The notes under the pieces were generated by a model. That model was not told where the DNA came from. It searched no databases and saw only the letters and a program-made list of their open reading frames with translations. From IMG/VR virus record IMGVR_UViG_3300013307_000029, positions 1 through 42,143 of that record: a DNA stretch of 42,143 bases, one strand, 5' to 3'. Origin of the DNA: a virus. Below are positions 7,044-27,783 of this stretch, one piece after another. Each line of letters opens with the position of its first letter. Position 1 is the stretch's first letter. Position numbers and translations under genes: made by a program.

Positions 7044-7237
7044 GCGTCCACCAGCCCGTCGACGAACCGCTCGAGGTCTGCAGTCCGAATCAGGTACTTG
7101 CCGACCGGGTTGCCGGCCTTGTCGGTGCCGGACCGCTTGGCCTTCAAGTCGCCCTCGCGGATCGCGCTCTTGAGATACGACTGGCTGAGGCCGGTCGCCT
7201 CGGCGGCGGCCTCGAGGTCGTAGGAGATCGGTGTCAC
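7040..7237 (-). CDS. excisionase-like helix-turn-helix protein (65 aa)
   Basis: The GTG at 7237 shares GTGA with the stop of the Cro-like gene. The 65-residue product has a winged-HTH of the MerR/excisionase type: AAAEATGLSQSYLKSAIREGDLKAKRSG, a beta wing with GNPVGKYLIRTADLERFVDGL. Such proteins bind DNA and either act as recombination directionality factors or as small regulators. Its place as second early gene beside an integrase system fits an Xis, but this is inference. Confidence 0.7.
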   Translation of the reverse strand: MTPISYDLEAAAEATGLSQSYLKSAIREGDLKAKRSGTDKAGNPVGKYLIRTADLERFVDGLVDA

Positions 7238-7527
7238 TGGTTGACCGCCCTTTTCGGAGCGGGTCCAACCTCGCGCGAGACGCGAGAGATTGAGGGGATG
7301 AAGAGAGAGTTCTTTGGGGCGTTGAGCACCCTTTCGATGCGCACAGCCAGGGCCTTGTCGCAGGTGCTCCGCTTGCCGGAGCGAAGGTGGCCGATCGTCG
7401 AGCGGTACTTGGGCCCGCCCACGGCATCGGCCAGTGATCGGACCGTGAAGCCTCGTGTCTCCATGTAGGAGGCGAGAGCTTGGGCATTGATTAGCTTCAA
7501 CTCGAACCTTCCCTCGATGCGGATCAT
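7234..7527 (-). CDS. Cro-like helix-turn-helix regulator (97 aa)
   Basis: Residues 13-55 look like a Cro/C1-type HTH: NAQALASYMETRGFTVRSLADAVG, a turn, then YRSTIGHLRSGKRSTCDKALAVRIERVL. The C-terminus is short and basic. GAGAGG lies five bases before the ATG at 7527. It is the first leftward gene from the divergent immunity control region, facing the plus-strand repressor, which is the usual place of Cro. It probably binds the TAGAC/GTCTA operators in the gap. Confidence 0.75.
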   Translation of the reverse strand: MIRIEGRFELKLINAQALASYMETRGFTVRSLADAVGGPKYRSTIGHLRSGKRSTCDKALAVRIERVLNAPKNSLFIPSISRVSREVGPAPKRAVNQ

Positions 7528-7544
7528 GGCTGCCTCTCAGACGG

Positions 7545-7558
7545 TAGACGCTCGTCTT
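7545..7558. promoter_or_regulatory. candidate operator 1
   Basis: TAGAC and GTCTT half-sites face each other across a 4-base spacer. This is a weaker copy of the two 5-base-spaced sites at 7585 and 7652. It lies just before the start of the Cro-like gene, downstream of the proposed leftward start point. Confidence 0.45.
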
Positions 7559-7570
7559 GCGTTGCACAAG

Positions 7571-7599
7571 ACGTTAGACCCAAATAGACGGCTTGTCTA
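7571..7599 (-). promoter_or_regulatory. candidate early leftward promoter with operator 2
   Basis: Read leftward, TAGACA (7594-7599) and TAACGT (7571-7576) are spaced by 17 bases, a reasonable sigma-70-type pair for an actinobacterium. The inverted repeat TAGAC-GGCTT-GTCTA (7585-7599) covers the -35 element and half of the spacer, so a bound repressor would block this promoter. It would drive the Cro-like gene and the whole early operon. Predicted by eye; no start site is known. Confidence 0.5.
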
Positions 7600-7651
7600 C
7601 AGGAATCGCTGAGGTTCTAGGCTGAATCCAGACTTACAACCGCGGAATCTG

Positions 7652-7666
7652 TAGACGCCGTGTCTA
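7652..7666. promoter_or_regulatory. candidate operator 3
   Basis: A perfect inverted repeat TAGAC-GCCGT-GTCTA, same half-sites and same 5-base spacing as the site at 7585-7599. It lies between the proposed rightward promoter area and the preferred GTG start of the repressor gene at 7714, where binding could give autoregulation. Confidence 0.6.
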
Positions 7667-7713
7667 CCTGTTCGATTGCGCCGCCCCCGAACGCCCGAGG
7701 AGCATCCGTAGAC

Positions 7714-8223
7714 GTGGCTACCAGAGACGTACCTCCGAGCTGGGCGGGGCTGCTCGAGCAGGCCAAGTTGGTCGACTCGCGAAACGGCGCTCCATCCATG
7801 AGCCGCCTTGCCGAAGCGTCAGGAGTTCACGCCTCGACGATCTCGGCGATGATGTACGGCGACCGACAGACCAAGGCGGAGAGCGTCGACAAGGTGGCCG
7901 CCGCCATCGCAGCCGGCATGCGTGCAGATCGGCGCGAAGGTGTCCGCGCGGTTGTGCACGAGCTCGTCGGTCGGGCGCTCCGCGTCCAGAAGCCGTTTGA
8001 GCCGCATCCTGATGCCGATCTCTTGACCGGCTCAGAGCGCAAGGCCATCAATGAACTCATCCGCGTGATGACCATCGCCAAGAAGCAGGGGGCCGTGCGC
8101 CTCGACGTGATCCGCGGCGGCCCGGATCTGTCGGTCGAGACTGATACCTCTAGTGGTGCGATAGCGGCGGACGAGCAGGAGACGTCGATCGCCGGAGAAC
8201 AGGAGGAGAGCGAGACGCCATGA
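7714..8223 (+). CDS. immunity repressor-like HTH protein
   Basis: A 169-residue plus-strand protein. An HTH occupies about residues 27-62: MSRLAEASGVHASTISAMMYGDRQTKAESVDKVAAAI, a Cro/C1-type fold. The rest is helical with an acidic C-terminus (EQETSIAGEQEESE) and no S24 protease domain, so it would not be a LexA-type self-cleaving repressor. I prefer the GTG at 7714, with AGGAG about 11 bases upstream; an in-frame GTG at 7660 lies inside operator 3. It diverges from the Cro-like gene and is followed by an ImmA-type protease gene, which may act on it. Confidence 0.75.
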   Translation: MATRDVPPSWAGLLEQAKLVDSRNGAPSMSRLAEASGVHASTISAMMYGDRQTKAESVDKVAAAIAAGMRADRREGVRAVVHELVGRALRVQKPFEPHPDADLLTGSERKAINELIRVMTIAKKQGAVRLDVIRGGPDLSVETDTSSGAIAADEQETSIAGEQEESETP

Positions 8224-8230
8224 CGGGGGA

Positions 8231-8653
8231 GTGACTCGGGACCGTTACGACCTGGTCATGCAGCACTGTGCGGATCTCGGCATCGACGTGGAGTGGGCGC
8301 CGCTGGGGGACAAGCGGCGCGGCGAGTACCACCGACATGGCGACCGCATCGTCCTCAACTCGAAGCTGACAGCCCGACAAGCGACCGCGTGCCTCGGTCA
8401 TGAACTGGGTCACCAACGCTTCGGCGATCACTGCTCGACGCCCGCGAACGAGCGGCGCGCGTGGGAGTACGCCGCGGCCTTGTTGATCACCCCGCGTGAG
8501 TACGCCGCAGCGGAGACTCTGGTCGGCCATCATCTGGCCGCTCTGGCGATCGAGCTCGGGGTGACTCCGAAGCTGATCGAGGCGTGGCGCCGCTGGTACG
8601 ACAGGCGGTGCCCCGAGCGGTTCAGGATCCCGAGGGAAGCCCCTTCAGCGTGA
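8231..8653 (+). CDS. ImmA/IrrE-family metallopeptidase
   Basis: A 140-residue protein with the zinc protease motif HELGH at residues 57-61, preceded by TARQATACLG and followed by a FGDHC segment, then a helix with ERRAWEYAAALLITPREY, which supplies the third-ligand Glu region of the family. ImmA cleaves phage or conjugative-element repressors to release lysogeny. It sits just after the repressor gene, as expected for a repressor/anti-repressor pair. The GTG start at 8231 is one of several possibilities. Its 3' end overlaps the convergent integrase gene by 32 bases. Confidence 0.85.
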   Translation: MTRDRYDLVMQHCADLGIDVEWAPLGDKRRGEYHRHGDRIVLNSKLTARQATACLGHELGHQRFGDHCSTPANERRAWEYAAALLITPREYAAAETLVGHHLAALAIELGVTPKLIEAWRRWYDRRCPERFRIPREAPSA

Positions 8654-9845
8654 ACGCACTAGCCACGCCCTGCAGCGCATCGCGCATCGGCCCGACGCGT
8701 GCCGTGATGTAGCCCTGGCTGATGGCGTAGGAGGAGTGTCCGAGGATGGCGGTGATGATCGTGGGCTCGATGCCGAGCTCGGCCAGGACCGTGGCCGTCG
8801 AGTTGCGGATCTCGTGGGTGACGAACGGGCGCCCGCTGGGATGCTTCACGTTGCCGGCGGCCTGTAGCGCGCGAAACTCGGCAGCGTCCTCTTCCTTGGG
8901 GATCGGCCGTCCGTCCGGCCGCGTCCACAGCAGCCCGTGATCGTTCGGCGGACGCTTCGGCAGCCACGTGGCGAGGGCTTCCTGCACCTCTTCGACCATC
9001 GGGATCACGCGCCAGCCCTTGTCGGTCTTCGGGCGCACGAGGTGGAAGTTGCCTTCGAGGTGCCGGGTCTCGTAGCCGTGGGGGATGCGGAAGCCTTGGG
9101 CCTTGTCGCGGCGGTCGATGTAGGGGAGTCGTTGCAGCTGCCACTCGAGGCTGATGAGCCCGCGGCCGAAGTCGAGCGCCTCTTCCGTGAGCCCGAGGCA
9201 TTCACCCTGGCGCATGCCCTGAAGGAACGCGACGAGCCAGCGGGAGCCGTGGGGGAGTTCGGCGGCGTGGGACAAGACGACGGTGGCCTGTGGCAGTTCG
9301 AGCGCGGCGCGGACGACCTTGGGCTTGCGTAGGTGCTTCTGGACCTTGATGTTGAAGACGCCGGGCGGGATCGGGTAGTCCTCCTCGAGCGCGTCGCGGA
9401 GCATCTTGATGAGCACGCGCTGGACGCGGAGGACGGTCTTCTCGTCGTGGCCGGCGTCGCGTACGGCCTTGTTCACTGCGCGGACGTCGGTGGGCATGAC
9501 GTCGACCAGGCGCGCCCGGCCGATGGTCGGCACGATGTAGTGGATGACGGCGGCGCGGTCGCTGGAGTAGGTGTTGGGTCGGACCGTCTCGACGCGCATG
9601 GCGAGCCACTCGACGGCCCAGCCTTCGATGGTCTTCCGGTCGACGTTGCCGCCCTTGCGACGGGCCTTCTTGAAGTCGCCACCGAGCGCCGCCCGCTTCT
9701 GTCGCAGCCGCCGCTCGGCCTCCGCCTTGGTCTTCCCGGTGGCACTGATCCGTCGGCGCTTGCCGCTGGCCGTGAGCCCGGCTTCACCGTCTGCTCGGTA
9801 GCGCCCGTTCTTCAAGAGGGTGACTGATCCGTCGCCGTGGGCCAT
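8622..9845 (-). CDS. int: tyrosine site-specific integrase
   Basis: About 407 residues. The N-terminal part is an AP2-like arm-binding domain with basic K/R-rich segments, followed by a SAM-like core-binding domain and the catalytic domain. Numbered from the alternative start at 9857, the catalytic residues visible are R216 (GMRQGECLGL), K278, H348 and R351 (HEIRNS), H374 (LGHSS) and Y383 (QGYITA). It inserts the phage genome at attB. The ATG at 9845 shares TGATG with the stop of the DUF6221 gene; ATG 9857 is the alternative. The likely attP elements lie upstream at 10229-10506. Confidence 0.92.
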   Translation of the reverse strand: MAHGDGSVTLLKNGRYRADGEAGLTASGKRRRISATGKTKAEAERRLRQKRAALGGDFKKARRKGGNVDRKTIEGWAVEWLAMRVETVRPNTYSSDRAAVIHYIVPTIGRARLVDVMPTDVRAVNKAVRDAGHDEKTVLRVQRVLIKMLRDALEEDYPIPPGVFNIKVQKHLRKPKVVRAALELPQATVVLSHAAELPHGSRWLVAFLQGMRQGECLGLTEEALDFGRGLISLEWQLQRLPYIDRRDKAQGFRIPHGYETRHLEGNFHLVRPKTDKGWRVIPMVEEVQEALATWLPKRPPNDHGLLWTRPDGRPIPKEEDAAEFRALQAAGNVKHPSGRPFVTHEIRNSTATVLAELGIEPTIITAILGHSSYAISQGYITARVGPMRDALQGVASAFTLKGLPSGS

Positions 9846-10216
9846 CAGGGCCGCCACTCCTCGCGGTGGTCCGGGTGGTCGGCGTACGGGAGGGCGAGGG
9901 TGCGGAGGGTTGGGCAGGGAAGCCGCTTCATGGTCACGGCGAAGTAGCCGCCGCCCTCATCCACCTCGTCAACGCAGACGGAGCACTCGTCGGTCACGAT
10001 CGGGTCTCGACCGAGCGCGGTCGTGACGACAGGGCAATGTAGTTCCACGATCTGTCGCTTGGCGTCGCAGTCGGCCAGCACGCGGGCGGGGTCCCATCGG
10101 GCGACATGCTCGCGCGTGTGGTGATCAGGGAAGAAGCGAGGAGGCTCGGTGCTCGCCTGCTGCGCCACCCGCTCATCTTCGGCGAGGCGGGCCAGTAGGA
10201 AGTCGGTCAGGGTCAT
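9845..10216 (-). CDS. DUF6221 family protein, copy 1
   Basis: A 123-residue protein opening MTLTDFLLARLAEDERVA, with a middle DPARVLADCDAKRQIVELH and an end ADHPDHREEWRP. This is the DUF6221 pattern, found mostly in actinobacteria and their phages, with no known function. The start at 10216 has GGAG five bases upstream; earlier in-frame ATGs fall in the direct repeats at 10229-10250. A second, diverged copy is at 11200-11511 on the other strand. It is cotranscribed with the integrase. Confidence 0.8.
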   Translation of the reverse strand: MTLTDFLLARLAEDERVAQQASTEPPRFFPDHHTREHVARWDPARVLADCDAKRQIVELHCPVVTTALGRDPIVTDECSVCVDEVDEGGGYFAVTMKRLPCPTLRTLALPYADHPDHREEWRP

Positions 10217-10228
10217 CAGGTCTCCAAA

Positions 10229-10250
10229 CTCAGCCATTGGCTCAGCCATT
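10229..10250. repeat. candidate integrase arm sites, left pair
   Basis: Two identical 10-mers CTCAGCCATT at 10229-10238 and 10241-10250, 12 bases apart start to start, so nearly one helical turn. A matching diverged pair with the same 12-base phase is at 10395-10416. Paired phased direct repeats beside an integrase gene resemble the arm-type sites of L5-like attP regions. Assignment is by pattern only. Confidence 0.5.
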
Positions 10251-10326
10251 CTATTGCCGACCAACGACCATATTGTCAGTTTCCACACGGGGAATCACGC
10301 TCAGCGGGACCCTGCAAGCGTACCAA

Positions 10327-10431: not shown

Positions 10432-10506
10432 GCCGCGTTAGCTCAGTGGTAGAGCACTCGCCTTGTAAGCGAGCGGTCGTCGGTTCAACCCCGACACGCG
10501 GCTCCA
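10432..10506 (+). tRNA. tRNA-Thr (anticodon UGU)
   Basis: The full cloverleaf is present: acceptor arms GCCGCGT and ACGCGGC pair over seven bases, the D arm reads GCTCAGTGGTAGAGC, the anticodon stem CTCGC/GCGAG closes the loop CTTGTAA with TGT at 10464-10466, and the T arm has GGTTCAACCCC. The 3' CCA is encoded (10504-10506). It may supply a rare-codon tRNA for the phage, or mark the attachment locus, because integrases of this kind often use tRNA genes. An intact gene with CCA on the phage side is more than a minimal att identity. Confidence 0.95.
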
Positions 10507-11029: not shown

Positions 11030-11203
11030 ATGAGCAACGATACCGAGGCCACTGACCCTCTCCGGTGCCCTACGTGCGGCGAGGTTGGCGTGAAGGCGTG
11101 CGTTGACGAGCAGGGCCGCCAGCTGGACTACGACCACGATGGGCGGCCAGCGTTCTTCCCGGTCGGCTTCGAGCGCATCTTCCCGACCAAGGCTCGCCCA
11201 TGA
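11030..11203 (+). CDS. small zinc-ribbon protein (57 aa)
   Basis: The start at ATG 11030 gives MSNDTEATDPLRCPTCGEVG, with one C-x-x-C pair and a later cysteine, then PVGFERIFPTKARP. An ATG at 11012 in the same frame is an alternative. Its stop shares ATGA with the DUF6221 gene behind it. Probably a small metal-binding protein of unknown role. Confidence 0.55.
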   Translation: MSNDTEATDPLRCPTCGEVGVKACVDEQGRQLDYDHDGRPAFFPVGFERIFPTKARP

Positions 11204-11511
11204 CCACCCAGACCGCCACCCTCTCCGACTTCCTTCTCGCCCGCATCGCCGAGGACGAATCGTGCTGGGAGGACGAGGCGGAAGTCCTTCGGTTGCGCGA
11301 CGATACGAGCGAGCGCAGAGAGTTGATCGAACGCGTGCTGGCCGAGTGCGAGGCCAAACGCGAGATTGTCCGCTACTTCCACATGCTCTGCGAACAGGGC
11401 CAGCAGCACGAGGTGTTCGGCTACCACGCGACTGGGCTGCAGTACGCGATTCGCCAACTCGCGGCCATCTACGACGGCCATCCTGACTACCAGGAGGAGT
11501 GGCGGGCATGA
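11200..11511 (+). CDS. DUF6221 family protein, copy 2
   Basis: A 103-residue protein that repeats the layout of copy 1: LSDFLLARIAEDESCW, then RRELIERVLAECEAKREIVRYFH and a closing DGHPDYQEEWRA. Copy 1 at 9845-10216 has the same start, the same C/E-A-K-R core and the same HPDH/Y-x-E-E-W-R end. The two are paralogs on opposite strands either side of the tRNA. ATGA overlaps join it to genes on both sides. Confidence 0.8.
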   Translation: MTTQTATLSDFLLARIAEDESCWEDEAEVLRLRDDTSERRELIERVLAECEAKREIVRYFHMLCEQGQQHEVFGYHATGLQYAIRQLAAIYDGHPDYQEEWRA

Positions 11512-11981: not shown

Positions 11982-14000
11982 CTAGATGTTGACCTCGAGC
12001 TGGCCGGCGTAGACCGTCGTCGTGGCCGAGGTGGTGTTCTGCAACGTGATCGAGACCCAGTTGTCCTTGGTCGAGTCGAACGAGCTGGTCGCAGCGACCG
12101 CCGTCCCTGCTGCTGTGGCTGAGCCGATAGTGCTCGTGCCCCCACCAATGTGGGTGGCGCTGGTGCCGATCGCCTGGATTGCGTCCACGCCCTCCATGTA
12201 ACGCGCACCGGCCGTGGAAGCCGACGCGGACATGATGATCAGCGAAGCATCGGAGGTGGTCCCCGCAGTGCCGATCCGGATGCGGGTGGTCACGACCGTT
12301 GCTGTTGCGGCCGAGGACGCCCAGAGCGAGTACTTGATGATCGACCCGACCTTGAACGTATTGGCGGGGATGAAGACCTTGGCGACCACGGCCTCGGTGG
12401 TGGTGGTGGCTGTGGCTCCTGGTGCGACGGAGACGCGGCGGCCGGAGTCGTCGAGCGTCTTCTTGTTGACGAGGTCTTGCGGATAGGTCGGCGTCACCCC
12501 AGTCTGCGGCTGTGCCGACCCGAATCCGACCACCTGCGCGAGCGACGCCCCGATGGATGCCTGCGTGGCTCCTGTCAGGTGAACGTTGACGTCGCCGTAG
12601 ACGCCGTTGGCCTGCCCTTGGGCGTACGTGCCGACCCGGTCGTGCCAGTCGACCAGAGGGACGTCGAGCGTGTCGGCGAGGGCGTACATGGCCTGCCAAA
12701 ACGCCTGCTGGGTCGCCTGCGCCACGAAGCTGTACGCCATCTCCGGCTCGAGGTGCAGGATGCAGTCGGAGTTCGGGTAGCGGTTGCGGATCGTGGTGAT
12801 CGCGGTCGTGATCGTCGACGCCGACGCAGCGGCCAGCATGTCGTTGACGCCAAGCACGATGTGGACGCACGACGGCTCGCGACCGATGCGGACAGTCTGG
12901 CCGGTGATGGTGCCGGTCGCGACGGCGTTGGTGGGCGTGCTGACTCCGTTGACCATCGTGTGGACCACGGCCGAGGTGGTGCTGTTGATTGAGCCGATGT
13001 AGGACTGCGGCGGGAACATGGGACCAGCAGCGCCCGGCGTCTGATCGAACGGGCGACCGATGTCGGCCGAGGTGAAGTTGGCCGTGGCGCTGGTCAGGTT
13101 CGGCGACCCGACCGTACTCCCGGCATCGGTGACGGTCCGCGAGGTGCCGGCGACGTACTGGAAGACCTGACCGGGCGCCGTGTTGGTGGCGACGTCGGAC
13201 CACGAGGTGCTGCCGGTTCCGGAGGCCAGCGAGCCGTTCTGGGCGACGTTGTGCATGACGAGCCCAGCGTTCGGGGTCCAGATGGAGAGTCCGGACAGGA
13301 ACGCGCCGAACGTGCCCTGCACGGTCACATTGAGGACGACCTTGCTGCCCGGCTGGATGTTCAGGCCGGTGATGTGCTGGTACTTCCACCCTGCAGACCC
13401 GGTGCAGACGACGGTGGCGGCCAGCACGCCGTTGACGGTGACGGTGAACGTGGCCCCGGTGGCGTCGTAGTACCAGACGTCGCAGATCGTGCCTGCCCGG
13501 TCGGCGGTGAAGGTCGCGATCGCACCGGACGCGTTGGAGGCGAGCATCGATTGATTGGAGTTCGACCAGGTTGAGCCGGTGAAAGCCCACCGTGAGTCCG
13601 GGGTGACCGTCGAGTCTGCGATCCGCACGAACCCTGTGCCGTTGGCGGGAACACCGCAGTTGGCGAGGTTGTCGCGGAACGCCAGCGCGACGGAGTTGAG
13701 CCGGTCGAAGGTGTAGACGCCGACCGCGGAGACGGTGCCCGCTGAGAGGGAGTCGCCGATCCACAGGTGCTCGGTCATCCCACCGCCGGACTTGCCCATC
13801 ATGCAGTTGGCGAGGCCCTGGTTCAGGATGCGGGTGTTGGACGACTTGAAGTTGTAGATCCCGAACTCGTTGGAGTACCGGTTCTTCAGCCCCGACAGCG
13901 AGCTAGCGTAGGAGTACGACGGGCGCCCGGAGGACGCCTGGTCGACGTACTGCTTCGAGGAGACGTCCGGATCGGCCGCCGGGCTGGAGAGAACCTTCAT
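11982..14000 (-). CDS. tail fibre with SGNH/GDSL hydrolase domain
   Basis: A 672-residue virion protein. The N-terminus (PAADPDVSSKQYVDQ) is the short attachment motif of tail fibres. An SGNH hydrolase follows: the Ser block WIGDSLSAG at 80-87 (Ser84), the Gly block NVAQNGSLASG near 251-261, the Asn block LGVNDML at 383-389, and a D-x-x-x-H segment around 470-474. Between the Ser and Asn blocks sits a beta-rich insert, and residues 510-672 look like a trimeric receptor-binding end. SGNH enzymes remove acyl groups from polysaccharides, so it may deacetylate a surface glycan. It is the last late gene. The His block spacing is slightly unusual. Confidence 0.8.
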   Translation of the reverse strand: MKVLSSPAADPDVSSKQYVDQASSGRPSYSYASSLSGLKNRYSNEFGIYNFKSSNTRILNQGLANCMMGKSGGGMTEHLWIGDSLSAGTVSAVGVYTFDRLNSVALAFRDNLANCGVPANGTGFVRIADSTVTPDSRWAFTGSTWSNSNQSMLASNASGAIATFTADRAGTICDVWYYDATGATFTVTVNGVLAATVVCTGSAGWKYQHITGLNIQPGSKVVLNVTVQGTFGAFLSGLSIWTPNAGLVMHNVAQNGSLASGTGSTSWSDVATNTAPGQVFQYVAGTSRTVTDAGSTVGSPNLTSATANFTSADIGRPFDQTPGAAGPMFPPQSYIGSINSTTSAVVHTMVNGVSTPTNAVATGTITGQTVRIGREPSCVHIVLGVNDMLAAASASTITTAITTIRNRYPNSDCILHLEPEMAYSFVAQATQQAFWQAMYALADTLDVPLVDWHDRVGTYAQGQANGVYGDVNVHLTGATQASIGASLAQVVGFGSAQPQTGVTPTYPQDLVNKKTLDDSGRRVSVAPGATATTTTEAVVAKVFIPANTFKVGSIIKYSLWASSAATATVVTTRIRIGTAGTTSDASLIIMSASASTAGARYMEGVDAIQAIGTSATHIGGGTSTIGSATAAGTAVAATSSFDSTKDNWVSITLQNTTSATTTVYAGQLEVNI

Positions 14001-14401
14001 CAGCCGAAGACGACCACGCGGTCAGGACGGGGGCCGTATCGCTGGGATCGCTTGGTTCCATCCCATCCGTATGGCGCGGCTCCTGCCAGAACTTCGCGGA
14101 TTCGTTCGCCGCGCCGGTTTCCCATATGCGGCAGCAGCCTTCGGAGCAGGTCGGGTACGAGTTCGCGGTCAGCCGACTCCCAGATGTGCATGATGCATCC
14201 CTTGGCGTCGGGCTTGGCCGTGCTAACCCGCCCGAAGCCTGCAACGCGATGCGCCTTGTGGATCACATCCAGATCCGTCATCGCAACCTTGGTCCACGGC
14301 AAGTTTCGGGGCGAGTTCACACCCTTGCCCGCAGGCCGCAGGGCAAATGAACCCTCGCCTTCCAAGAGGCCGGCCAGCCATGCAAGCTCGATGTCATCCA
14401 T
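14000..14401 (-). CDS. LAGLIDADG-type homing endonuclease
   Basis: A 133-residue protein with one LAGLIDADG-like helix, AWLAGLLEGEGSFAL, at residues 7-21, including the acidic catalytic residue, followed by a beta segment with DVIHKAHRVAGFGRVST and a C-terminal helix RRGERIREVL. Single-motif enzymes work as homodimers. The gene is wedged between two tail fibre genes with one-base or TGATG overlaps on each side and no spare DNA. It is a free-standing selfish gene in the fibre locus. Confidence 0.8.
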   Translation of the reverse strand: MDDIELAWLAGLLEGEGSFALRPAGKGVNSPRNLPWTKVAMTDLDVIHKAHRVAGFGRVSTAKPDAKGCIMHIWESADRELVPDLLRRLLPHMGNRRGERIREVLAGAAPYGWDGTKRSQRYGPRPDRVVVFG

Positions 14402-15294
14402 CAGCCCATCACCACGATTCGATACTGCGAGGCAGTCGGTGCGCCACCGAAGTTGACCGACACCGTGTTCGTCGTCGCAGCCGTCACGTCGGCCAGGACG
14501 AAGTTGCCGCTGGAGACCTCGACGACCTGCACGTGCACGTCGAGGGTGCCGAGGTTGTGGGTGAAGGTCTGCGGGTTGGTGGTGACCACGCAGTTGGCGG
14601 CGAACTTCCGGACCACAACTGAGGTGTCGATGCCGACCGTGTCCGCAGCGACGGTGATGCCCGTGCCGGCACCAACCGCGAGGACGCCGGTCGCTTCGAC
14701 GAGACCAGCGCCAGCCGCCCCGGAGCCGATCCGCACGCCACTCGCGGACTTGCTGAGCGTGGTCCCGTCGAGCTCGAGCTGGAACTGGCTGCCGACGAGC
14801 TCGATGCCGTTGCCATCCGCGGTGTAGGACGTACCGCTGCCGACCTGGGCGAAGGTGAGGGCCGTCGTTCCGAGCGTGATGGTGCCGTTGTTGGTCAGGG
14901 TCCACGCGGTGTCGGCGTTGACCGTGCCCTCTTCGACGAACACCGACATGTTCGCGGTGACCTCACCGGCCGCGTCGGCGTCAGTGGCGCGAGTCGGGGC
15001 ACCGGAGGCGTTGACTGTGTAGATGCCGTTCTCAGCGCCGGCCGCCTGGTTCTTCAGCAGGACGCGGTCGTTGGTGGCGAGTGTCACGCCGTCGATCACG
15101 CTGCCGTTAGCGAAGCTGCTCGCGAGTGTTCCTGCGGCGGTCGTTGCGGCGCGAACTGACGCCTTCCAGTCGAGCCCATTGACCAGCCCGTCGACGTAGG
15201 ACTTGTTGACCGCGTCCGTGGCACCGGAAGGACTGGCGACGTTGGTGATGTTCTTGGAGTTCGCATCGATCCCGTTGAGGAACTTGGCGGACAT
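14401..15294 (-). CDS. tail fibre protein (297 aa)
   Basis: The N-terminus MSAKFLNGIDANSKNITNVASPSGATDAVNKSYVDG in pattern is the repeated tail-fibre motif (N-I-T-N-V-A-x-P-x-x-x-T-D-A-V-N-K-x-Y-V-D), followed by WKASVRAATTAAGTL and NDRVLLKNQAAGAENGIYTV, typical of phage fibre shafts, and a beta-rich end. It probably makes trimers at the tail tip. The next fibre gene starts with the same K-x-Y-V-D element, separated only by the homing nuclease gene. Confidence 0.8.
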   Translation of the reverse strand: MSAKFLNGIDANSKNITNVASPSGATDAVNKSYVDGLVNGLDWKASVRAATTAAGTLASSFANGSVIDGVTLATNDRVLLKNQAAGAENGIYTVNASGAPTRATDADAAGEVTANMSVFVEEGTVNADTAWTLTNNGTITLGTTALTFAQVGSGTSYTADGNGIELVGSQFQLELDGTTLSKSASGVRIGSGAAGAGLVEATGVLAVGAGTGITVAADTVGIDTSVVVRKFAANCVVTTNPQTFTHNLGTLDVHVQVVEVSSGNFVLADVTAATTNTVSVNFGGAPTASQYRIVVMG

Positions 15295-18542: not shown

Positions 18543-19289
18543 CTAGTAGTAGCCGCCGGCGCGGCGGGGTGAGTACTGGTGCGACTTCGGCGGCGGCCAG
18601 ATCCGCCCGGACCCGACGCCGAGTTGGTCCTCGCGCGGGTACAGGCGACATGGCGGCGCAGCACCGAGGGGCAGGACTCCGAAGGTCAGGTACGGCCACG
18701 GCAGGTTGATCCCGCCGGATGGCTCCGCGAAGAGCCATGTCTCGTCGGAGATCACGCCGGTGTTCACGCCGACTGTGCCGTGGACGTACGTTCCGTCTAC
18801 GCCGCCGACCGCAGTCCAGTCAGTCCCGCCGTACGGGTTATAACCGGCCGTGCCACCCAGGGCCGCGCGGACCCAGTTGATGTTGACCGCGGCACCCTCG
18901 CCGGGCAGGCCCGGGATGGTCGGCCCGTCAGCCTTGACGATCGGCCGCGACGGATCGAGCTGGTTGTGAAACGAGGCGACGAAGGCGCCGAAGAACTGGC
19001 CGACCGCGTTGAAGAAGCCAGTGCCGCTCCATGCGATCGGAGTGGTGTCGCCGTCCCAGTGACCTGCCCAGACGCCGTACGACCATCCGCCGGAGATGTC
19101 GTGGGTGTAGAGCTCGGTGAGCCCGCGGCCCGGCGGCACGATGTGACCGTAGGTCTCGATCGACGCGACGAGCAGGTCGCCGATCTTGGTAAGCGGCGGG
19201 ATGTCGAGATGGAACGGCCACTGGGTGCTCTCGTCGGCGTTGTTGGTTGCGAACCCGGAGAAGCCGACGAACAGCGGCAGGCTCGACAT
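18543..19289 (-). CDS. minor tail protein (248 aa)
   Basis: A beta-rich, Gly/Trp/Tyr-rich protein (DISGGWSYGVWAGHW, WSGTGFFNAVGQFFGAF) ending in a basic, Pro-rich tail. It has no recognised catalytic motif. The ATG at 19289 overlaps the stop of the large minor tail gene. Position between tail and lysis genes supports a tail-tip role. Confidence 0.65.
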   Translation of the reverse strand: MSSLPLFVGFSGFATNNADESTQWPFHLDIPPLTKIGDLLVASIETYGHIVPPGRGLTELYTHDISGGWSYGVWAGHWDGDTTPIAWSGTGFFNAVGQFFGAFVASFHNQLDPSRPIVKADGPTIPGLPGEGAAVNINWVRAALGGTAGYNPYGGTDWTAVGGVDGTYVHGTVGVNTGVISDETWLFAEPSGGINLPWPYLTFGVLPLGAAPPCRLYPREDQLGVGSGRIWPPPKSHQYSPRRAGGYY

Positions 19290-21421
19290 CAGACGGTGTC
19301 GTCTTCCTGGGCCCAGAGGATCTGCCCGGCCTTGAGCGTGGTGTTGGCGCTTGGGTAGATGGCCATCCAGATCACGGCTGGGGCGTAGGGGTCCATGATG
19401 TAGGGCCAGGACGCGTCGTCTTGCCAGTGGCCGGTGACCGGCGCACTGGTGGTGACGCCAGCGTTGTTGGTGTGCTTCCGGGGCCAGTAGCCGCAGGGCT
19501 GCTCGTGGGTGCCGGCGGCGTAGAGCAGGACGCGGTTGTCGAACCAGTCGTTGTTGCGGTCCCTCTCGTACCAGGCGTCGGCACCGTCGGCGACTGCGGC
19601 GAGAGGGTCACCGATCCGCTGGCGCAACTCGCCACGGTGGACATGGGTTGCGAAGAACGCGACAGCGAAGGTGGTGGCTGGGCCTGTCAGGTGGATGTCT
19701 ACCCGGTTGACTTGCCCTTGCTGCCCAACGACGATCGGGACGAGGTTCCAGGCGTTGCCGTCCAGGGCGACCTTCTGCGACAGGCGCCCGAAGAACTCGT
19801 CGCGGGAGATCATGGCGCCGCTGCTGCGCCGGGGGCGGTTGGCGGCGAACCACTCACGGCGGATGTCGCGGCGTGCGTCAGCGTTGCGCGCGATGACCGC
19901 GGCGACCTCGAGGAGGTCACGGGCCTGGCTGTCGACGGTAAGCGTGGCCCCATCTGCATCGAAGTCCACACCGGAGATGTGGACAAGCGCACCGCCATCG
20001 AACTGCGGTAGCCAAGCGTTCCACCCAGGACGGACATCGCGATTGGACAGGATGCGGGGGTCGTCGTCAACGAGCGGTGCGTCGCCTGGGTTGTGCTCGC
20101 CTGAGATGACGCCGAACCCGTTGAGGCGGATCGTGCCGGTCCAGTTCTTGCCGTCGGCTCGGGCCTGCTGGCCTCGACACCAGTCGATCGCTTCAGGCTT
20201 GGTGATCGCTGCGCCGAAGTCGATGTCGCGCTCGACGCGCAGGATGCGGGGGTCGCGGGCGTCGTTGACGCCGACGATCGAGCCGTTCGACGAGTAGTCG
20301 TAGACGCGCACGGCGGGGTCCTCGAGCAGTGGGAAGACCTTGGCGCCGTTGAGGGACCAACCGGTTGCGTCGATGTCCCAGAGCCGGTCCCAGGCGGTGG
20401 TGGTCATCACGCCGGTGACTGCGAGATGGACGTCGGCCTGGAGGCGCTTGACCGCGGCGACCGTGTCGTCGTTGTAGGCGCCCGTGACCGGGTTCGTCCA
20501 CCCGTAGTACGACTCCTGCTGCAGCTTGATCTGCAGGACGGTGATGTCGTCGCCGGTGATCGTGTCGGCGTCGGTCGTCCCGGAGCCGAACGAGACACCG
20601 CCGGCCATCGGGTACGCCGGGGTCGGACCCTGCTGCAGTCCCGGATACTTGGCGTTGCGCCACTTGACCCCGTCAGGGGTGACGCCGTTGCCGTACCAGG
20701 CGTTCGGCTGCTCGGCGGCGTCGTCGACCAGCGATGGCACGGCGGTGGCGTCGTCGAGGTAGATCGTGCAGTGCTTGGTGGTGTAGTCCTTCTGGGCGAA
20801 CGTCCAGTAGGCGCCGCCCCATGTCTCCGGCATGATCGTGCGCTGCAGCCCGTTGGCGTCCTGCGACATCGCGCAGACCTTCGAAGCCCACGACAGCAGG
20901 GACTCGCCGCCGCCCGTATCGACCATCTCGACACCCGTGACGGGCCCGTACCAGGGGTTCATCGGGAACAGCAGCTCTTCGAAGATTGCGAGTCCGGCGA
21001 GGTGGCCGGTATCGCCGACGTAGCGGAAGGCGCGCTGGTGCTTGTTGATCAGTGCCGCTCGACCGGAGTACTGGCCACCGATGTTGAGGTTCAGGGCGCG
21101 GCCCATGATCTCCACGGAGACGACGACGCCGACGTAGTCGGTGACCACGGAGTCGTCGGGCATGACGCGCTCGATGCGGACCTCGGCGCCCTTGCGGACC
21201 CAGGAGAGCTCACCGGCCTGCCCGAACGCGTTGGACTCGAAGATGGCGTGGATCTGGGGGAACTGGAGGTTCGTCGGCCCGTACGCGAAGGGCTCGGTCA
21301 GCTGGAACCGTGGTGTGAGCATGGGGATGTCGCGGAAGAAGCTGACGTCGACGCCGTCGATCCAGTAGCGGTTACGTCCTGCTGTCTTCGCTGCGGCCCG
21401 TGTCTGAGCGAAGGTGCTCAC
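19289..21421 (-). CDS. large minor tail protein with inserted peptidoglycan-binding domain
   Basis: A 710-residue protein. The first 150 residues look like a tail-tip hub (FSSFFRD-like start, a beta barrel with VRIERVMPDDSVVTDYVGVV). Residues about 291-350 form a PG_binding_1-like three-helix unit: DITVLQIKLQQE, GAYNDDTVAAVKRLQADVHL, VTGVMTTTAWDRLW. The C-terminal half is beta-rich with the Cys-poor pattern of virion proteins. A wall-binding module in a tail protein may hold the virion to the murein during entry. The start overlaps the gene before it by four bases. Confidence 0.75.
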   Translation of the reverse strand: MSTFAQTRAAAKTAGRNRYWIDGVDVSFFRDIPMLTPRFQLTEPFAYGPTNLQFPQIHAIFESNAFGQAGELSWVRKGAEVRIERVMPDDSVVTDYVGVVVSVEIMGRALNLNIGGQYSGRAALINKHQRAFRYVGDTGHLAGLAIFEELLFPMNPWYGPVTGVEMVDTGGGESLLSWASKVCAMSQDANGLQRTIMPETWGGAYWTFAQKDYTTKHCTIYLDDATAVPSLVDDAAEQPNAWYGNGVTPDGVKWRNAKYPGLQQGPTPAYPMAGGVSFGSGTTDADTITGDDITVLQIKLQQESYYGWTNPVTGAYNDDTVAAVKRLQADVHLAVTGVMTTTAWDRLWDIDATGWSLNGAKVFPLLEDPAVRVYDYSSNGSIVGVNDARDPRILRVERDIDFGAAITKPEAIDWCRGQQARADGKNWTGTIRLNGFGVISGEHNPGDAPLVDDDPRILSNRDVRPGWNAWLPQFDGGALVHISGVDFDADGATLTVDSQARDLLEVAAVIARNADARRDIRREWFAANRPRRSSGAMISRDEFFGRLSQKVALDGNAWNLVPIVVGQQGQVNRVDIHLTGPATTFAVAFFATHVHRGELRQRIGDPLAAVADGADAWYERDRNNDWFDNRVLLYAAGTHEQPCGYWPRKHTNNAGVTTSAPVTGHWQDDASWPYIMDPYAPAVIWMAIYPSANTTLKAGQILWAQEDDTV

Positions 21422-21921
21422 GTGGGCCTCCCGCCGACCATGTCTGGGGTCGGGTAGGCGATGGCCTTATCGACCTTGACGCCGAGGGTGATTGTCGACG
21501 GCACAGCCGCGGTCGGCCGGTCGATGACGATGGTCGCCACACCGCCACGACTGCGGCCCTCACCAGCGTTGGTGGTGCCCGTGCCCGTCGTGACAATCTG
21601 CGTCCAGAACGCCAGGAGCGACGTCGACTTCGCGCGCGCCAGTGGCAGCGTCAGCGTGCCGACGGGGATGGTAGGGGTGAACCCCTGAGCCTTCGCTGCC
21701 GGCGCGAGGACTTGGATGGTCGCATTGCTGGCAGCCGAGGGGTTGAGCGCGTCTGCCACTGCGTACGCCGGGTGCGGGTGGGCCACATAGGAGTCGCCTT
21801 GTGGGGTGGTGATGAGTCCCGCGGCGGTGGCGGTCGCCAGGCCAGCCGAGACGGTGACCGAGGTAATCGGAAGCTCTCCGTAGCCGACCTCGCCATATGC
21901 AACCTCACCGTAGGCGGCCAC
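21418..21921 (-). CDS. minor tail protein (167 aa)
   Basis: Opens with three near-repeats of Y-G-E-V/L (AAYGEVAYGEVGYGELPITS) and continues beta-rich (VTVSAGLATATAAGLITT, STITLGVKVDKAIAY). It is the first tail gene after the acyltransferase insertion and overlaps the next gene by four bases. Function inferred from context only. Confidence 0.65.
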   Translation of the reverse strand: MAAYGEVAYGEVGYGELPITSVTVSAGLATATAAGLITTPQGDSYVAHPHPAYAVADALNPSAASNATIQVLAPAAKAQGFTPTIPVGTLTLPLARAKSTSLLAFWTQIVTTGTGTTNAGEGRSRGGVATIVIDRPTAAVPSTITLGVKVDKAIAYPTPDMVGGRPT

Positions 21922-21965
21922 CAGTCACCTCGATTCCGATGTATCAGGGCGCGTGGTGGCGCATC

Positions 21966-23078
21966 ATGTTCGACATGACCTCGGGAGAGCGTTGGCGACT
22001 CGGGCACCGGCCTGCCCTCGACGGGCTGCGCGGGATCGCGATCGTCGCCGTGCTCATCTACCACGGCTCGATCGTCATCGGCCGCGACTCCTACGTGCCT
22101 TCACTCGGAGTCGTCGGCGTGACTGTGTTCTTCACCCTGTCGGGGTTCCTCATCACCACGCTGCTGCTCGAGGACCGCGAAGCCCACGGGAGGATCCGCT
22201 ACGGCCACTTCTACCGGCTCCGCGCCCTGCGCCTGCTGCCGGCACTGATTGCGCTGATCGCCTTCGTCTGCGTCCTCGGTGTGTTCGTGGACGGCTTCGT
22301 GCACGTCGGTAGCGTCTTGGCCACCCTGTTCTACGTCCAGAACTGGTACTCAGGCATTGGTGGCACCCGTGACGCCCTCGGCCACACATGGACCCTGTCG
22401 ATCGAAGAGCAGTTCTACCTGCTCTGGCCGATCGCGCTCGGCTGGGCCGCCCGGTACGGCTGGCGGTGCATCCTCGCCCTGGCGCTGACCGGCGCCGCAG
22501 TGAGTGCGGTCCTGCGGAACGCGCTCTACGGGCACGGCGACGCGTGGCAGAACTTCAGCGCCACCTACACCAAGGCCGACGCCCTGCTCATCGGCTGCGC
22601 TCTCGCGGTCGTGATGAGCCGCCTCTCCTACAGCTGGGTCCGGGTGCCGCTCGTGGTCGTCGGGCTGGCCATGATCGCTCTCGCCTCGGAGATGACCCTC
22701 AATGCGTACCAGGTGGCGGCACCCACCGCGGCCGAGTTCGGCACTGCGGTGCTGATCTTCGGTGCCTGTGCTGGACGCGGTGGCATCCGGGCGCTCGAGT
22801 GGGGTTGGCTGACGTGGTTCGGTCGCCGAAGCTACGGGCTCTACCTCTGGCACGTTCCGGTGATGGCGCTACTGATGAAGACGACGCTGCCGACTGGGGT
22901 GTCGCTGCTGATGATTGCCGGCGGCTCGTTGGTGCTCACCGAACTTTCGTGGCGGCTCATCGAGCAGCCATTCATGCGGCGGCGTCAGTCGGTGAAGAAC
23001 GAGATCCCGTCGAGCCCGACGTACGTCGTGGAGCCGGCCGCGAAGGTCACCACCCCGGTCGTGTCGACGTCGATCTGA
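21966..23078 (+). CDS. OafA-type membrane O-acyltransferase
   Basis: About 370 residues with some ten hydrophobic helices and the Acyltransferase_3 signature: RPALDGLRGIAIVAVLIYHG near the start (R-x-x-x-x-D-G-L-R-G), GVTVFFTLSGFLITTLLL, then FYRLRALRLLPAL, and HTWTLSIEEQFYLLWP (catalytic-type W-S/T-L-S-x-E-x-Q-F-Y). It lacks a C-terminal SGNH domain. These enzymes move acetyl or other acyl groups onto surface glycans. It is on the strand opposite the tail genes, and its end overlaps a tail gene by 94 bases. ATG 21966 and 21975 are both possible starts. Confidence 0.85.
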   Translation: MFDMTSGERWRLGHRPALDGLRGIAIVAVLIYHGSIVIGRDSYVPSLGVVGVTVFFTLSGFLITTLLLEDREAHGRIRYGHFYRLRALRLLPALIALIAFVCVLGVFVDGFVHVGSVLATLFYVQNWYSGIGGTRDALGHTWTLSIEEQFYLLWPIALGWAARYGWRCILALALTGAAVSAVLRNALYGHGDAWQNFSATYTKADALLIGCALAVVMSRLSYSWVRVPLVVVGLAMIALASEMTLNAYQVAAPTAAEFGTAVLIFGACAGRGGIRALEWGWLTWFGRRSYGLYLWHVPVMALLMKTTLPTGVSLLMIAGGSLVLTELSWRLIEQPFMRRRQSVKNEIPSSPTYVVEPAAKVTTPVVSTSI

Positions 23079-23605
23079 CCGACGTTGGTGTTCAGCGGGA
23101 CGAACGACAACTTCACGGTCGGCCGATAGCCAGTCGGGAGGGTGAAGATCGTGGACGGGTTGGCGCCGGACTTCACAACGCCGCGCAAGTAGACCCGACC
23201 GTTCGCGTCCTTGCGGTAGGCGGCGGTCGAGTAGGTGCCACCGAAGGCGACCCAGGTACCGGAGAGTGTCGGGTTCGTCCATGCGTTCTCGCCCTGGACG
23301 TCGGCAGCGAGGATCCCACAGACGACCTTGTCACCGATCGAGTGGGTGACGCCTGTCGTGGCTTCTTGGCCGCGGGTGATGGTGCCGGTGGTAGCTGCGG
23401 CGGTGTAGGCAGTCAGGTAGACGATTTCGGAGAGATGCCCGTTGGTGTCGAGGATCGCGAGCGGGATGTAGTCCGAACCACTGAGGGTGGGCACGTTGGT
23501 GCCGTTCGAGTGCGTGAGCGCGGCAGCGAAGGTGACCGACGTCGCCGTGGTCGTCAGCGACCCGCCGAGGGTCGCGGTCAGGCCGTTGTAACGCAGACGG
23601 GCCAT
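22985..23605 (-). CDS. tail fibre-like minor tail protein (206 aa)
   Basis: The product (MARLRYNGLTATLGGSLTTTATSVTFAAALTHSNGTNVPTL) has the beta pattern of phage tail-tip and fibre proteins, with YLRGVVKSGANPSTIFTLPTGYRP resembling receptor-binding domains. The final 31 codons lie opposite the end of the acyltransferase gene. It is separated from the next minus-strand tail gene by the acyltransferase insertion. Confidence 0.7.
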   Translation of the reverse strand: MARLRYNGLTATLGGSLTTTATSVTFAAALTHSNGTNVPTLSGSDYIPLAILDTNGHLSEIVYLTAYTAAATTGTITRGQEATTGVTHSIGDKVVCGILAADVQGENAWTNPTLSGTWVAFGGTYSTAAYRKDANGRVYLRGVVKSGANPSTIFTLPTGYRPTVKLSFVPLNTNVGQIDVDTTGVVTFAAGSTTYVGLDGISFFTD

Positions 23606-23606
23606 G

Positions 23607-24227
23607 TCACGGCACCAAGATCACGGCGATACCGAGGGCGTGCCACGACACTTGGAACGTGGTCCCGGTGGTCGAAACATCCACCCCGAAATCGGCGAAC
23701 CCAATGAGCGGCTTCGTGGCCGAGGTGGAAGGGGTGTCGTCGTAGAGCACAGCGCCGCGTGCTGTCAGCGTCGAGGACGTCCAAGAGACGTTTCCACCGG
23801 TCAGCACCAGTCCGCCCTTCGCGACGCACAGCCACGTCACAGTCCCGTCGGTCACGGTCTGCCCGATCGTGACCGGGAATGTCGGGACTGAGCCCGCAGA
23901 GGTGCCCGAGGTCAGCGCCTGGTAGACAAACCCGTTGCCGGTCGCCGGCCGGACGACGTCTCCGGCGGCGTAGGTGATTGAGTTCGCCCGCGATATCGTC
24001 CAGGAGTTCGCCGCCACGTAGGAGAATGCAGGGCTGCCGACTGCGCCGCCGCCAGCGGTGTAGCCGGTGCCGGTCACCTCGTTGGTGATGTCGTTGAAGT
24101 AGTCGTGACCATCGTGGTCGAAGGTGTAGCCGCTGGTGACCAAGACCAGCTTGATGGAGTCGGAGTTGAAGTCGATCTCCTTGTTCATCACCGAGGCGAA
24201 GAACTTGCCGTAGAACGAGAACGCCAC
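23607..24227 (-). CDS. minor tail protein (206 aa)
   Basis: Opens MAFSFYGKFFASVMNKEIDFNSDSIKLVLVTSGY, a start shared by a family of phage tail proteins, and has strands such as VTWLCVAKGGLVLTGG and FADFGVDVSTTGTTFQVSW. Beta-rich throughout. A one-base gap joins it to the fibre-like gene. Virion location is inferred from position. Confidence 0.7.
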   Translation of the reverse strand: MAFSFYGKFFASVMNKEIDFNSDSIKLVLVTSGYTFDHDGHDYFNDITNEVTGTGYTAGGGAVGSPAFSYVAANSWTISRANSITYAAGDVVRPATGNGFVYQALTSGTSAGSVPTFPVTIGQTVTDGTVTWLCVAKGGLVLTGGNVSWTSSTLTARGAVLYDDTPSTSATKPLIGFADFGVDVSTTGTTFQVSWHALGIAVILVP

Positions 24228-24653: not shown

Positions 24654-25102
24654 CAGACGGTCCCAGGGATCGGGTAGACGGGGATTGTGACGGTCAGCAC
24701 CTCGAAGAACGCCGCGACAGCCTGGGCTTCAGCCAAGTCCGACTCCGGCGCCCAAGGTGCCGGCGATGCCGCCCACACCTTCAGCACGCCACCTAGATCC
24801 ACCGTCACTGGATACGCGAACTGCGATAGCGCCTCGTCGAGCTCGTCGATCGCCGCGTCGAGATCGGCGGTCGTGTTGGCCTGCACCATCACCCGGAACG
24901 GGTAGTCCGTGTTCTCCTTGACGGCCGCGATGAACTCGGTGCCGTGCACGTCCACAGAATTCGGCGCGGCGGTCTTGCGCCACGTAACGGCTGGGCGCCG
25001 GAGTCGACTGCCGAGGAGGAGGACGTAGGTCGCATTGAGGGCCTCGTCGATCACCAGATCCGACAGGCTCAAGGAGGAGCGGTCGATCGTCACCGAACTC
25101 AT
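24653..25102 (-). CDS. minor tail protein after tape measure (149 aa)
   Basis: The product (VTIDRSSLSLSDLVIDEALNATYVLLLGSRLRRPAVTWRKT) is an alpha/beta protein with a helix ADLDAAIDELDEAL and a closing beta strand. The ATG at 25102 overlaps the tape measure stop. Its position directly after the tape measure fits a distal tail component; no family is recognised. Confidence 0.65.
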   Translation of the reverse strand: MSSVTIDRSSLSLSDLVIDEALNATYVLLLGSRLRRPAVTWRKTAAPNSVDVHGTEFIAAVKENTDYPFRVMVQANTTADLDAAIDELDEALSQFAYPVTVDLGGVLKVWAASPAPWAPESDLAEAQAVAAFFEVLTVTIPVYPIPGTV

Positions 25103-27783
25103 GCGACGCGCCCCGTCGAGACAGGTGTGCCACCGATGCCCGCGTTCCGGGCCCGACCGTTCATCTGACCCATGAAGTCCGCGTAGTCATGGGCCACGAC
25201 CGTGTCGATGTTGATGGTGACCCCGCCGACAGCCCGGCCACCCGGTAGCGGCGCATTACCCGGCGTCTGGTCGAGCGGCGTCAGGCGCTCCGGTCCGTTC
25301 TCGCCGATCAGCGCGACCGTGGGGCGGTTGATGATCGCGCCCCGTGCGCCGGCACCCTCGGGGTGGATGCCCGGCCCGAACAACGCAGACGTCGGTGCCA
25401 GCGGGATGCCCGTGACCTGGAACTTGACCTTGATCGTCTTATCCCGGAGTTTGTCCAGTTCGCGCTTGAGGCGCTCCACTTCCGAGACCGACGTCGGCAC
25501 GCCCGAGACCTTGATGAGCGTGCTCAACTCGGGCGGCGTCAGTTTGTACTTCTCGGCCAGCGTGGCGAGCTGCTGCGCGGTGTCCGGGAAGCCCTTGAGG
25601 CCGATCTCAGTTATTGCCTTACGTGGGAAGCCCTTCAACACCTTGCCCAGATCGAGTACTGCCAGCCGCTGATCCCGCTGGATGCTCTTGTCCTTCTTGA
25701 ATTCGGTCGAGTTCGAGCTGACAGCGTCAGTCAACGTGTTGAACGCACCTGCCAGGTCCGCGAGGTGCTTCTTCTCGGCCGTGGTCTGCGCGCCCTGGTC
25801 GTTGAGGTTGCCCGAACTGAGCAGCTGATCGCGGGCGGTGGTGTATCCCTGAATCGCCTTGTTGTAGATGTCGAGCGCCTTCTTGTTCCCAAGAGCGGCA
25901 TCGACGAGCGTCCGCGACGACAGGCCGAACTTCCGCCCAGCGTCGATCGCTCCCGACTTCTGCAAGGCGTCGAACGCCGATGCGCGGGTCGCCCGTGTGG
26001 TCGCTCCAGTGAGAGAGTTAAGGGTTGATACGTAGTCCGCGACAACCGGCTTGGACCGTTGCAGCGTGTTCTTGACCTTGGTCGCCTGCGTCGCCAGCCC
26101 GAATAGGGCACCGGCTCCCGCACCAACCGCGGCACCAACCGGCCCCCCAGCAGCGAACCCCAGTAGCGCGCCGCCGCCAGCAGAGCCCAGGATGCCAAGC
26201 GCCTTGTTCGAGGTGGTTGCCGACTCGGTCAGTAGGCCGATCCCGCCAACTCCAGCCAGCCCGCGGACCGCCACCGAGGTCTTGGACAACTGCGTGTCGG
26301 CGCCGCGCAGGCCGTTGATGGCAGCGGTCAGCTTAGTGAGCCCACTCGAGGCGGCCTCGAAGACCTGGTAGCCCTTCAGGGCCACCACCACAGCGATGAT
26401 GCCGGCAGCCGTGGCGGTCAATACGGGGACTGGAATCACCCGAATCACATCCGCGAGAACCTTGATGCCCCCAAGCGCGAGCGCGCCAATCGGAGCCAGG
26501 GCGATGCCGACGCGAACAAGAGCCTTGAAGACGCTCCCAATGGTCGCTGCCACCTTCGGACCGGTATCACGCAAGTAGGCCAGGAAGGATTGGAAGCCCT
26601 TTGAGGGACCCACGGTCGTGCCCCACTCGGCGAACCGCTTCGACAGATCGGTTAGGCCACCCACCAGTCCCTTTGACAGCGGCGCGAACGCAAGCGCGAG
26701 GCCGACGAAGCCCTTGCCAAAGTTCTCCACGATGCGCCCAAACGAGACGATCGCCGAAGCCGACGCAGCCCCGAAGGCGTTCATGAAGTTCTTGAAGGCA
26801 GGACCAGAAGCCGACTTGTCGATGTCACCGAGCAGCGTGCCAACCGCGCGCGAAACTGCGGTGAGCGGACCCTTCAGCGTCGGCATGATCTTCGCCAACG
26901 CGTCCATGCCCGTGACCACGGGCCCAAAGATCGCCGGGCCCGCCGTCGTGACGAGTCCCTTGAACGAGCTCTTGAGGGCCTCCTGGCTCTTGATGAACCG
27001 AGCCTGAGCAGGCGTTAGGCCCTTGAGCGCGGCGTTGTAGGCCGCGGTCGCTTCAGTGACCCTGCGCTGCGCCGCAGCCCTTCGAGCGTCGTTAGACGCG
27101 GAGATCGATGCTTGGCGGCCACTCAGGGCCGCGTTCGCCGCGTCGAGCCTGCGCTGGGCACTCGCGCGAGCCGAGGCCGTGGTCGCTGATGCAAGCGCCT
27201 GCTGCGCCGCCTTGATGGCAGCGGCGTGGCTGCGCTGGGCTGTTGCCAGGGAGTTTGCTGATGAAGCACCGATTGAGGCGTTGGTGTTCGCGAGCGCCTG
27301 CTGAGCCGCCGCGACCTTCTTGGCGAGTTCGTCGATCTTCTTCTTCTGGGTCTCAGTCTGCTTGATCGCGACGCCCGCCACAATCCCACCCAGCGTTAGA
27401 CCGGCTCCAGCGGCAGCGACGGGCAGGGCGAAGGCCGCACCTAGGCCGGCGACCGCAGCGGTGATCGGGATAAGGGCGGGGCCTAGGGCCAGAATGGCGG
27501 TCAAGCCCGCGCCCGCTGCGCTCACGTCGATCTTGGCCTTGCGATTGCGCGCCGCATCGTCGATCTTTGCCTTGGCCTTCGCGGTGTCCGCGTCAGCCTG
27601 GATCTTTACCTGACGCGGACGCGTAGCCTCGTCAAGCTTCGTCTTCGCAGCCGTCGTGTCCGCGTCGATCTTGATGTTCGCGGAGATGTCCTTGAGCTTC
27701 GCCTTTAGCTTGGTCGCGAAGCCACGTGTGTCCGGGACTACGTCAACGGCAACTGAACCGACTGAGATCGTCAACCCGGACAC
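25099..27783 (-). CDS. tape measure protein (894 aa)
   Basis: By far the longest gene. It begins MSGLTISVGSVAVDVVPDTRGF, then repeated short units with K-A-K and D-A-D-T-A (residues 25-85), a Gly/Ala-rich hydrophobic block (about 90-160), long coiled-coil and Ala-rich helices (about 170-260), a further hydrophobic stretch near 440-490, and an ordered C-terminus. Tape measure proteins set tail length and help DNA entry. At the usual 1.5 angstrom per residue the tail would be roughly 130 nm. Placed directly after the tail assembly chaperones. Confidence 0.9.
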   Translation of the reverse strand: MSGLTISVGSVAVDVVPDTRGFATKLKAKLKDISANIKIDADTTAAKTKLDEATRPRQVKIQADADTAKAKAKIDDAARNRKAKIDVSAAGAGLTAILALGPALIPITAAVAGLGAAFALPVAAAGAGLTLGGIVAGVAIKQTETQKKKIDELAKKVAAAQQALANTNASIGASSANSLATAQRSHAAAIKAAQQALASATTASARASAQRRLDAANAALSGRQASISASNDARRAAAQRRVTEATAAYNAALKGLTPAQARFIKSQEALKSSFKGLVTTAGPAIFGPVVTGMDALAKIMPTLKGPLTAVSRAVGTLLGDIDKSASGPAFKNFMNAFGAASASAIVSFGRIVENFGKGFVGLALAFAPLSKGLVGGLTDLSKRFAEWGTTVGPSKGFQSFLAYLRDTGPKVAATIGSVFKALVRVGIALAPIGALALGGIKVLADVIRVIPVPVLTATAAGIIAVVVALKGYQVFEAASSGLTKLTAAINGLRGADTQLSKTSVAVRGLAGVGGIGLLTESATTSNKALGILGSAGGGALLGFAAGGPVGAAVGAGAGALFGLATQATKVKNTLQRSKPVVADYVSTLNSLTGATTRATRASAFDALQKSGAIDAGRKFGLSSRTLVDAALGNKKALDIYNKAIQGYTTARDQLLSSGNLNDQGAQTTAEKKHLADLAGAFNTLTDAVSSNSTEFKKDKSIQRDQRLAVLDLGKVLKGFPRKAITEIGLKGFPDTAQQLATLAEKYKLTPPELSTLIKVSGVPTSVSEVERLKRELDKLRDKTIKVKFQVTGIPLAPTSALFGPGIHPEGAGARGAIINRPTVALIGENGPERLTPLDQTPGNAPLPGGRAVGGVTINIDTVVAHDYADFMGQMNGRARNAGIGGTPVSTGRVA

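Follow-up and report, generated by a model that had tools for sequence, protein, structure and literature searches.

A plus-strand gene at positions 21966–23078 of the 42,143-nucleotide stretch of viral DNA analysed here (the window) encodes a predicted membrane O-acyltransferase of the AT3 family and lies antisense within the late module of a temperate, actinophage-like siphovirus. Judging from its sequence and from analogy with characterized systems, it is probably an accessory acyltransferase of the Oac/OafB/Atf kind, which would be expressed in the lysogen, acylate an envelope glycan or glycolipid, mask the phage receptor and limit superinfection.

The acyltransferase gene and its product

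The acyltransferase frame belongs to a plus-strand open reading frame that is open throughout positions 21897–23078. Translation from the ATG at 21966 yields a protein of 370 amino acids and agrees with the start of its relatives; alternative starts are found at 21897 and at the ATG at 21975. Gene calling based on codon usage placed minus-strand genes on both sides, at 21418–21921 upstream and 22985–23605 downstream, and assigned the stretch between 21921 and 22985 to the plus strand, with no minus-strand gene called there. This is in line with the first-pass annotation, which had described the gene as antisense among late genes. Its further statement that the gene lies between two tail genes holds for the downstream side, where 22985–23605 (minus strand) encodes a tail-fibre/minor-tail-like protein of 206 amino acids, whose residues ~102–205 are shared with tail proteins of Streptomyces and Geobacillus phages. 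On the upstream side, however, the late gene at 21418–21921 (minus strand, 167 amino acids, GTG start with GAGGTG upstream) had no family match in profile searches. This gene is divergent from the acyltransferase gene, and the two start codons are 44 bp apart if the ATG at 21966 is used. The following gene (19289–21421, minus strand) encodes a putative tail protein of 710 amino acids with a PG_binding_1 match, which shares 38.6% identity over 98% with part of the product of a long tail-region gene, gp36 of Pseudanabaena phage Pam4. Since late genes resume beyond the acyltransferase (the 710-amino-acid protein, a protein with virion-structure matches at 14401–15294 and the gene at 11982–14000), the acyltransferase gene sits within the late module and not at its end.

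The protein matches PF01757 (Acyl_transf_3) over profile positions 2–311 of 326, with an E of 3e-32 and a score of 112 bits where the cut-off is 31. It also matches the ‘O-antigen acetylase’ family, PHROG 6705 (E 1e-49). All conserved AT3 motifs, as defined previously (PMC9833829, PMC9558356), are present: R22-X10-H33, R86-X2-R89, V-x-x-F-F-x-L-S-G, W142 and E147/E148. R22 and H33 in the first helix as well as R86 and R89 in the third are invariant or nearly so among 36–40 relatives, and the R-X10-H and RXXR motifs were reported to be conserved and pore-lining in OafB (PMC9833829). An AlphaFold (AF2) model reached a mean pLDDT of 89.8 and a pTM of 0.88, and a structure match was obtained in BFVD (E 3e-11). 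The PDB contained no AT3 sequence relative of the protein, and a plain Foldseek search against it gave no match at E below 0.001. Structure comparison with VIA-align pointed to HGSNAT (Z 14.9, rmsd 5.3, 288 aligned) and GWT1 (Z 10.9); the HGSNAT score is only moderately above the chance level for helical proteins, but far above the first unrelated rows, which are transporters with Z at most 4.7. This match agrees with the reported fold unity of transmembrane acyltransferases (PMC12423673).

Motifs, model and the HGSNAT/GWT1-like fold thus concur in predicting an AT3 integral-membrane enzyme, and the family assignment made in the first-pass annotation, including the full set of family motifs, is borne out. 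The label ‘OafA-type’ fits only in part: the family is that of OafA, but the C-terminal SGNH domain of the OafA/OatA fusion is absent, as the protein ends ~30 residues past the AT3 core, whereas relatives with an AT3-SGNH fusion comprise 600–720 amino acids. An OatA-type peptidoglycan acetylase was ruled out for the same reason. Its nearest relatives overall are AT3 enzymes from bacteria or viruses, bacterial chromosomal proteins among them; with an identity of just 34–39%, their substrates should not be transferred to the window protein.

Phage context and accessory status

The minus strand of the window carries the genes for terminase, portal, scaffold, capsid, major tail protein and tape measure protein (the last at 25099–27783), and the nearest relatives of terminase and capsid are found in actinophages. 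A tyrosine integrase is encoded at 8622–9857 (minus strand), next to an immunity-like cassette at 7660–8653 consisting of an HTH_3 protein (a weak match under the Pfam cut-off) and an M78 (ImmA-like) peptidase, which shares the plus strand with the acyltransferase gene. The integrase, the adjacent HTH_3 match and the M78 peptidase indicate a temperate phage, and the temperate setting assumed at first reading is retained. The tail appears mosaic, given that the homologue of the 710-amino-acid protein (1290 amino acids) is found in the cyanophage Pam4 while the head genes are actinophage-like. The host is likely an actinobacterium. As actinobacteria have no O-antigen, the enzyme would have to act on a different glycan or on a glycolipid of the envelope.

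A complete tRNA-Thr (TGT) gene is located at 10432–10506, ~575 bp upstream of the integrase start, and is flanked by two DUF6221 genes on opposite strands, at 9845–10288 (minus) and 11200–11511 (plus). Together with the integrase it forms a candidate attP/tRNA arrangement, for which tRNA-dependent lysogeny offers a comparison (PMC10865867). In a host search based on this tRNA, the best matches (up to 93% identity) were chromosomal tRNA copies from the family to which Gordonia oryzae belongs; no better match was found in 396 genomes of the phylum, and a terminase search of 396 phylum genomes at a strict limit gave no match.

PF01757 was not matched in any of ten contigs carrying related head genes, including two with lengths of 40.9 and 43.3 kb, which argues for an accessory status of the acyltransferase gene. 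The ten contigs do not share the tail genes of the window. Scans of viral contigs with the 710-amino-acid protein, the tape measure protein, the portal, the terminase, the major tail protein and the product of 23607–24227 recovered head relatives (terminase 54–75%, portal 75%) and no collinear tail region, and a megablast search with the tail region found no match among phages. In the comparison with related phages that the first-pass annotation had proposed, no exact empty site was seen, for want of a relative with a collinear tail. The annotation's description of the gene as ‘moron’ cargo stands only as far as the absence from the head-module relatives is concerned. With a GC content of 0.67 and a codon usage in the mid-range for the phage, the base composition is not foreign and gives no sign of recent import. 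Moreover, a consensus scan of 21300–23700 recognized no sigma-70-type promoter or terminator, although scans of this type are ill suited to promoters of actinobacteria, and the motif TANNNT was not found in the 300 bp upstream of the gene. Because of the ordinary composition and the lack of recognizable signals, we do not use the term moron in its strict sense.

Overlap and recurrent convergence with tail genes

The acyltransferase gene and the tail-fibre-like gene share exactly the 94 bp at 22985–23078, as first annotated. Here, the last 31 codons of the acyltransferase gene, past the conserved domain, run antisense to the conserved C-terminal end of the tail gene. Since the conserved part of the tail protein reaches its last residues, whereas the AT3 family alignment stops ~30 residues before the end of the acyltransferase, the simplest reading of the sequences is that the acyltransferase frame was extended into an older tail gene. 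In this register, each third codon position of one gene falls on a third position of the other (GC 94%), so that the overlap would be easily tolerated. It exceeds all overlaps in the de-replicated viral set (58, 35, 14 and 4 bp).

The arrangement itself recurs. Annotated or matched O-acetyltransferase genes lie opposite to, and point at, a tail, tailspike or late gene in Faja, Peas, LonelyBoi, Murp, Ab31, PAJU2 and BTP1, with one small co-directional gene in between in the case of Faja. Among the actinophages, the AT3 proteins of the Arthrobacter phages Faja (gp34) and Peas (gp30) and of the Gordonia phages LonelyBoi (gp31), Murp (gp33) and BritBrat (gp30) share 28–33% identity with the window protein, and four of the five genes are antisense to tail or late genes, as in the window. 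In contrast to the window gene, they are located at the tail/integration boundary, and most of the proteins, unlike that of Faja, bear a C-terminal extension (>700 amino acids). The BritBrat gene is oriented in the direction of the tail genes, so antisense placement is not obligatory. The earlier view of antisense cargo as a sign of lysogenic conversion is partly supported: the arrangement recurs in phages with an enzyme known to alter the receptor glycan, such as OafB of BTP1.

In de-replicated viral contigs, with genes called by a home-made codon-usage caller, 16/23 AT3 genes converge with the next gene compared to 33/252 other genes (Fisher p ~1e-8), and opposite-strand genes on both sides were found for 9/21 AT3 genes but only 9/223 others. 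Tail-fibre, endolysin and spanin families are represented among the neighbouring genes. For example, the IMG/VR contig 3300012923_000009 (L003) encodes a single-domain protein of 37% identity, among the nearest viral relatives, and its gene, with a virion/tail gene on one side and an endolysin-like gene on the other, is antisense to both, comparable to the position of the window gene between late genes. It abuts its neighbour, whereas the window gene overlaps, and tblastn on this contig found no significant homologs of the window tail genes. Another viral contig (L012) harbours two adjacent, divergent AT3-family genes, at 5810–7759 (minus) and 7902–9983 (plus), adjoining a tail-fibre gene that matches an esterase/lipase.

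Proposed function and alternative explanations

Prophage receptor acylation is best known from O-antigen phages of Gram-negative bacteria. OafB of the Salmonella prophage BTP1 is reported to acetylate O-antigen rhamnose and to protect from BTP1, as the tailspike of this phage is impeded when its receptor glycan carries acetyl groups (PMC9558356). The gtrC/OafB locus of BTP1 resembles the window in that a temperate phage carries an AT3 gene antisense to, and convergent with, its tailspike gene; it differs in the fused SGNH domain, the Gram-negative O-antigen substrate, the low identity (29%) and the location at the tailspike/int junction instead of inside the late module. Oac of Shigella phage Sf6 is, by description, a single-domain AT3 enzyme like that of the window; it acts on O-antigen in lysogenic conversion, confers superinfection immunity (PMC9558356) and is encoded beside the integrase gene. 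An acyltransferase of an actinobacterial prophage is also known from Mycobacterium abscessus, namely Atf (MAB_1725c of prophiATCC19977-1; prophiGD17-2), which in the case of prophiGD17-2 shows low-level lysogenic expression and O-acetylates glycopeptidolipid; the authors named Faja as bearer of an Atf-like enzyme (PMC10400925). No Mycobacterium phage was among the organisms tallied in the search with the window protein, so Atf, if related, would belong to a distant branch.

By analogy, the acyltransferase gene would be transcribed from the plus strand in the lysogen, where the late genes on the minus strand are silent. With acyl-CoA as donor, the enzyme would pass acyl groups (probably acetyl) through the membrane to a host envelope glycan or glycolipid, a modification that may mask the receptor of the phage's own tail fibre and of its relatives. 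Superinfection and re-adsorption of progeny would thereby be reduced. During lytic growth, late transcription would run antisense across the gene and damp it.

One alternative is that the enzyme serves as a lysogenic fitness factor without phage exclusion, with acylation of a wall polymer or glycolipid altering hydrophobicity, lysozyme sensitivity or other surface traits. AT3 enzymes fill many envelope roles (PMC9558356), the Atf of M. abscessus modifies a glycopeptidolipid (PMC10400925) and the bacterial chromosomal proteins among the nearest relatives point in the same direction. Nevertheless, we regard this explanation as rather unlikely, since the recurrent placement by tail-fibre and tailspike genes fits receptor modification better and the enzyme, in contrast to the peptidoglycan acetylase OatA, has no SGNH domain. 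Expression in the lytic cycle, which would keep progeny off debris or block competitors independently of lysogeny, could account for the BritBrat gene and for several co-directional contig relatives (L005, L014, L015, L021, L024, L027), but it is distinctly improbable for a gene antisense to the late module and belonging to a family that mostly converges with the next gene. A non-expressed, decaying host gene caught passively in the tail module would match the lack of a recognizable promoter, but is hardly credible for a full-length gene that keeps all invariant family residues, a confident fold, a third-position GC of 0.88 and a codon usage like that of other phage genes.

With receptor acylation in the lysogen as the preferred reading, the window gene is a further case of a known prophage surface-acylation strategy, not a new one, and adds an example from an actinophage-like virus. 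Phage receptors of Gram-positive hosts are poorly known. As the convergent layout of tail and acyltransferase genes recurs across very different phages, an antisense AT3 gene next to tail genes could serve as a practical marker of predicted surface-modifying prophages in such hosts.

The late gene at 11982–14000 (minus strand) encodes a tail-fibre-like protein of 672 amino acids with an SGNH/GDSL esterase domain (PF13472; GDSL, GVND and VHLT blocks), which resembles the annotated esterases of two Gordonia phages, but only weakly. It is a possible ‘eraser’: the AT3 enzyme might acylate the receptor in the lysogen, and this virion protein might strip those groups off again, which would leave acylated cells open to particles of the phage itself but not to competitors. 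We consider such a pairing doubtful and treat it as a lead, as PF13472 was matched in only 3/36 AT3-bearing viral records, two of them above the cut-off. As a general rule it was rejected because of this low co-occurrence and because phage Footloose has an annotated esterase, while the 22 kb examined contain no gene annotated as an acyltransferase.
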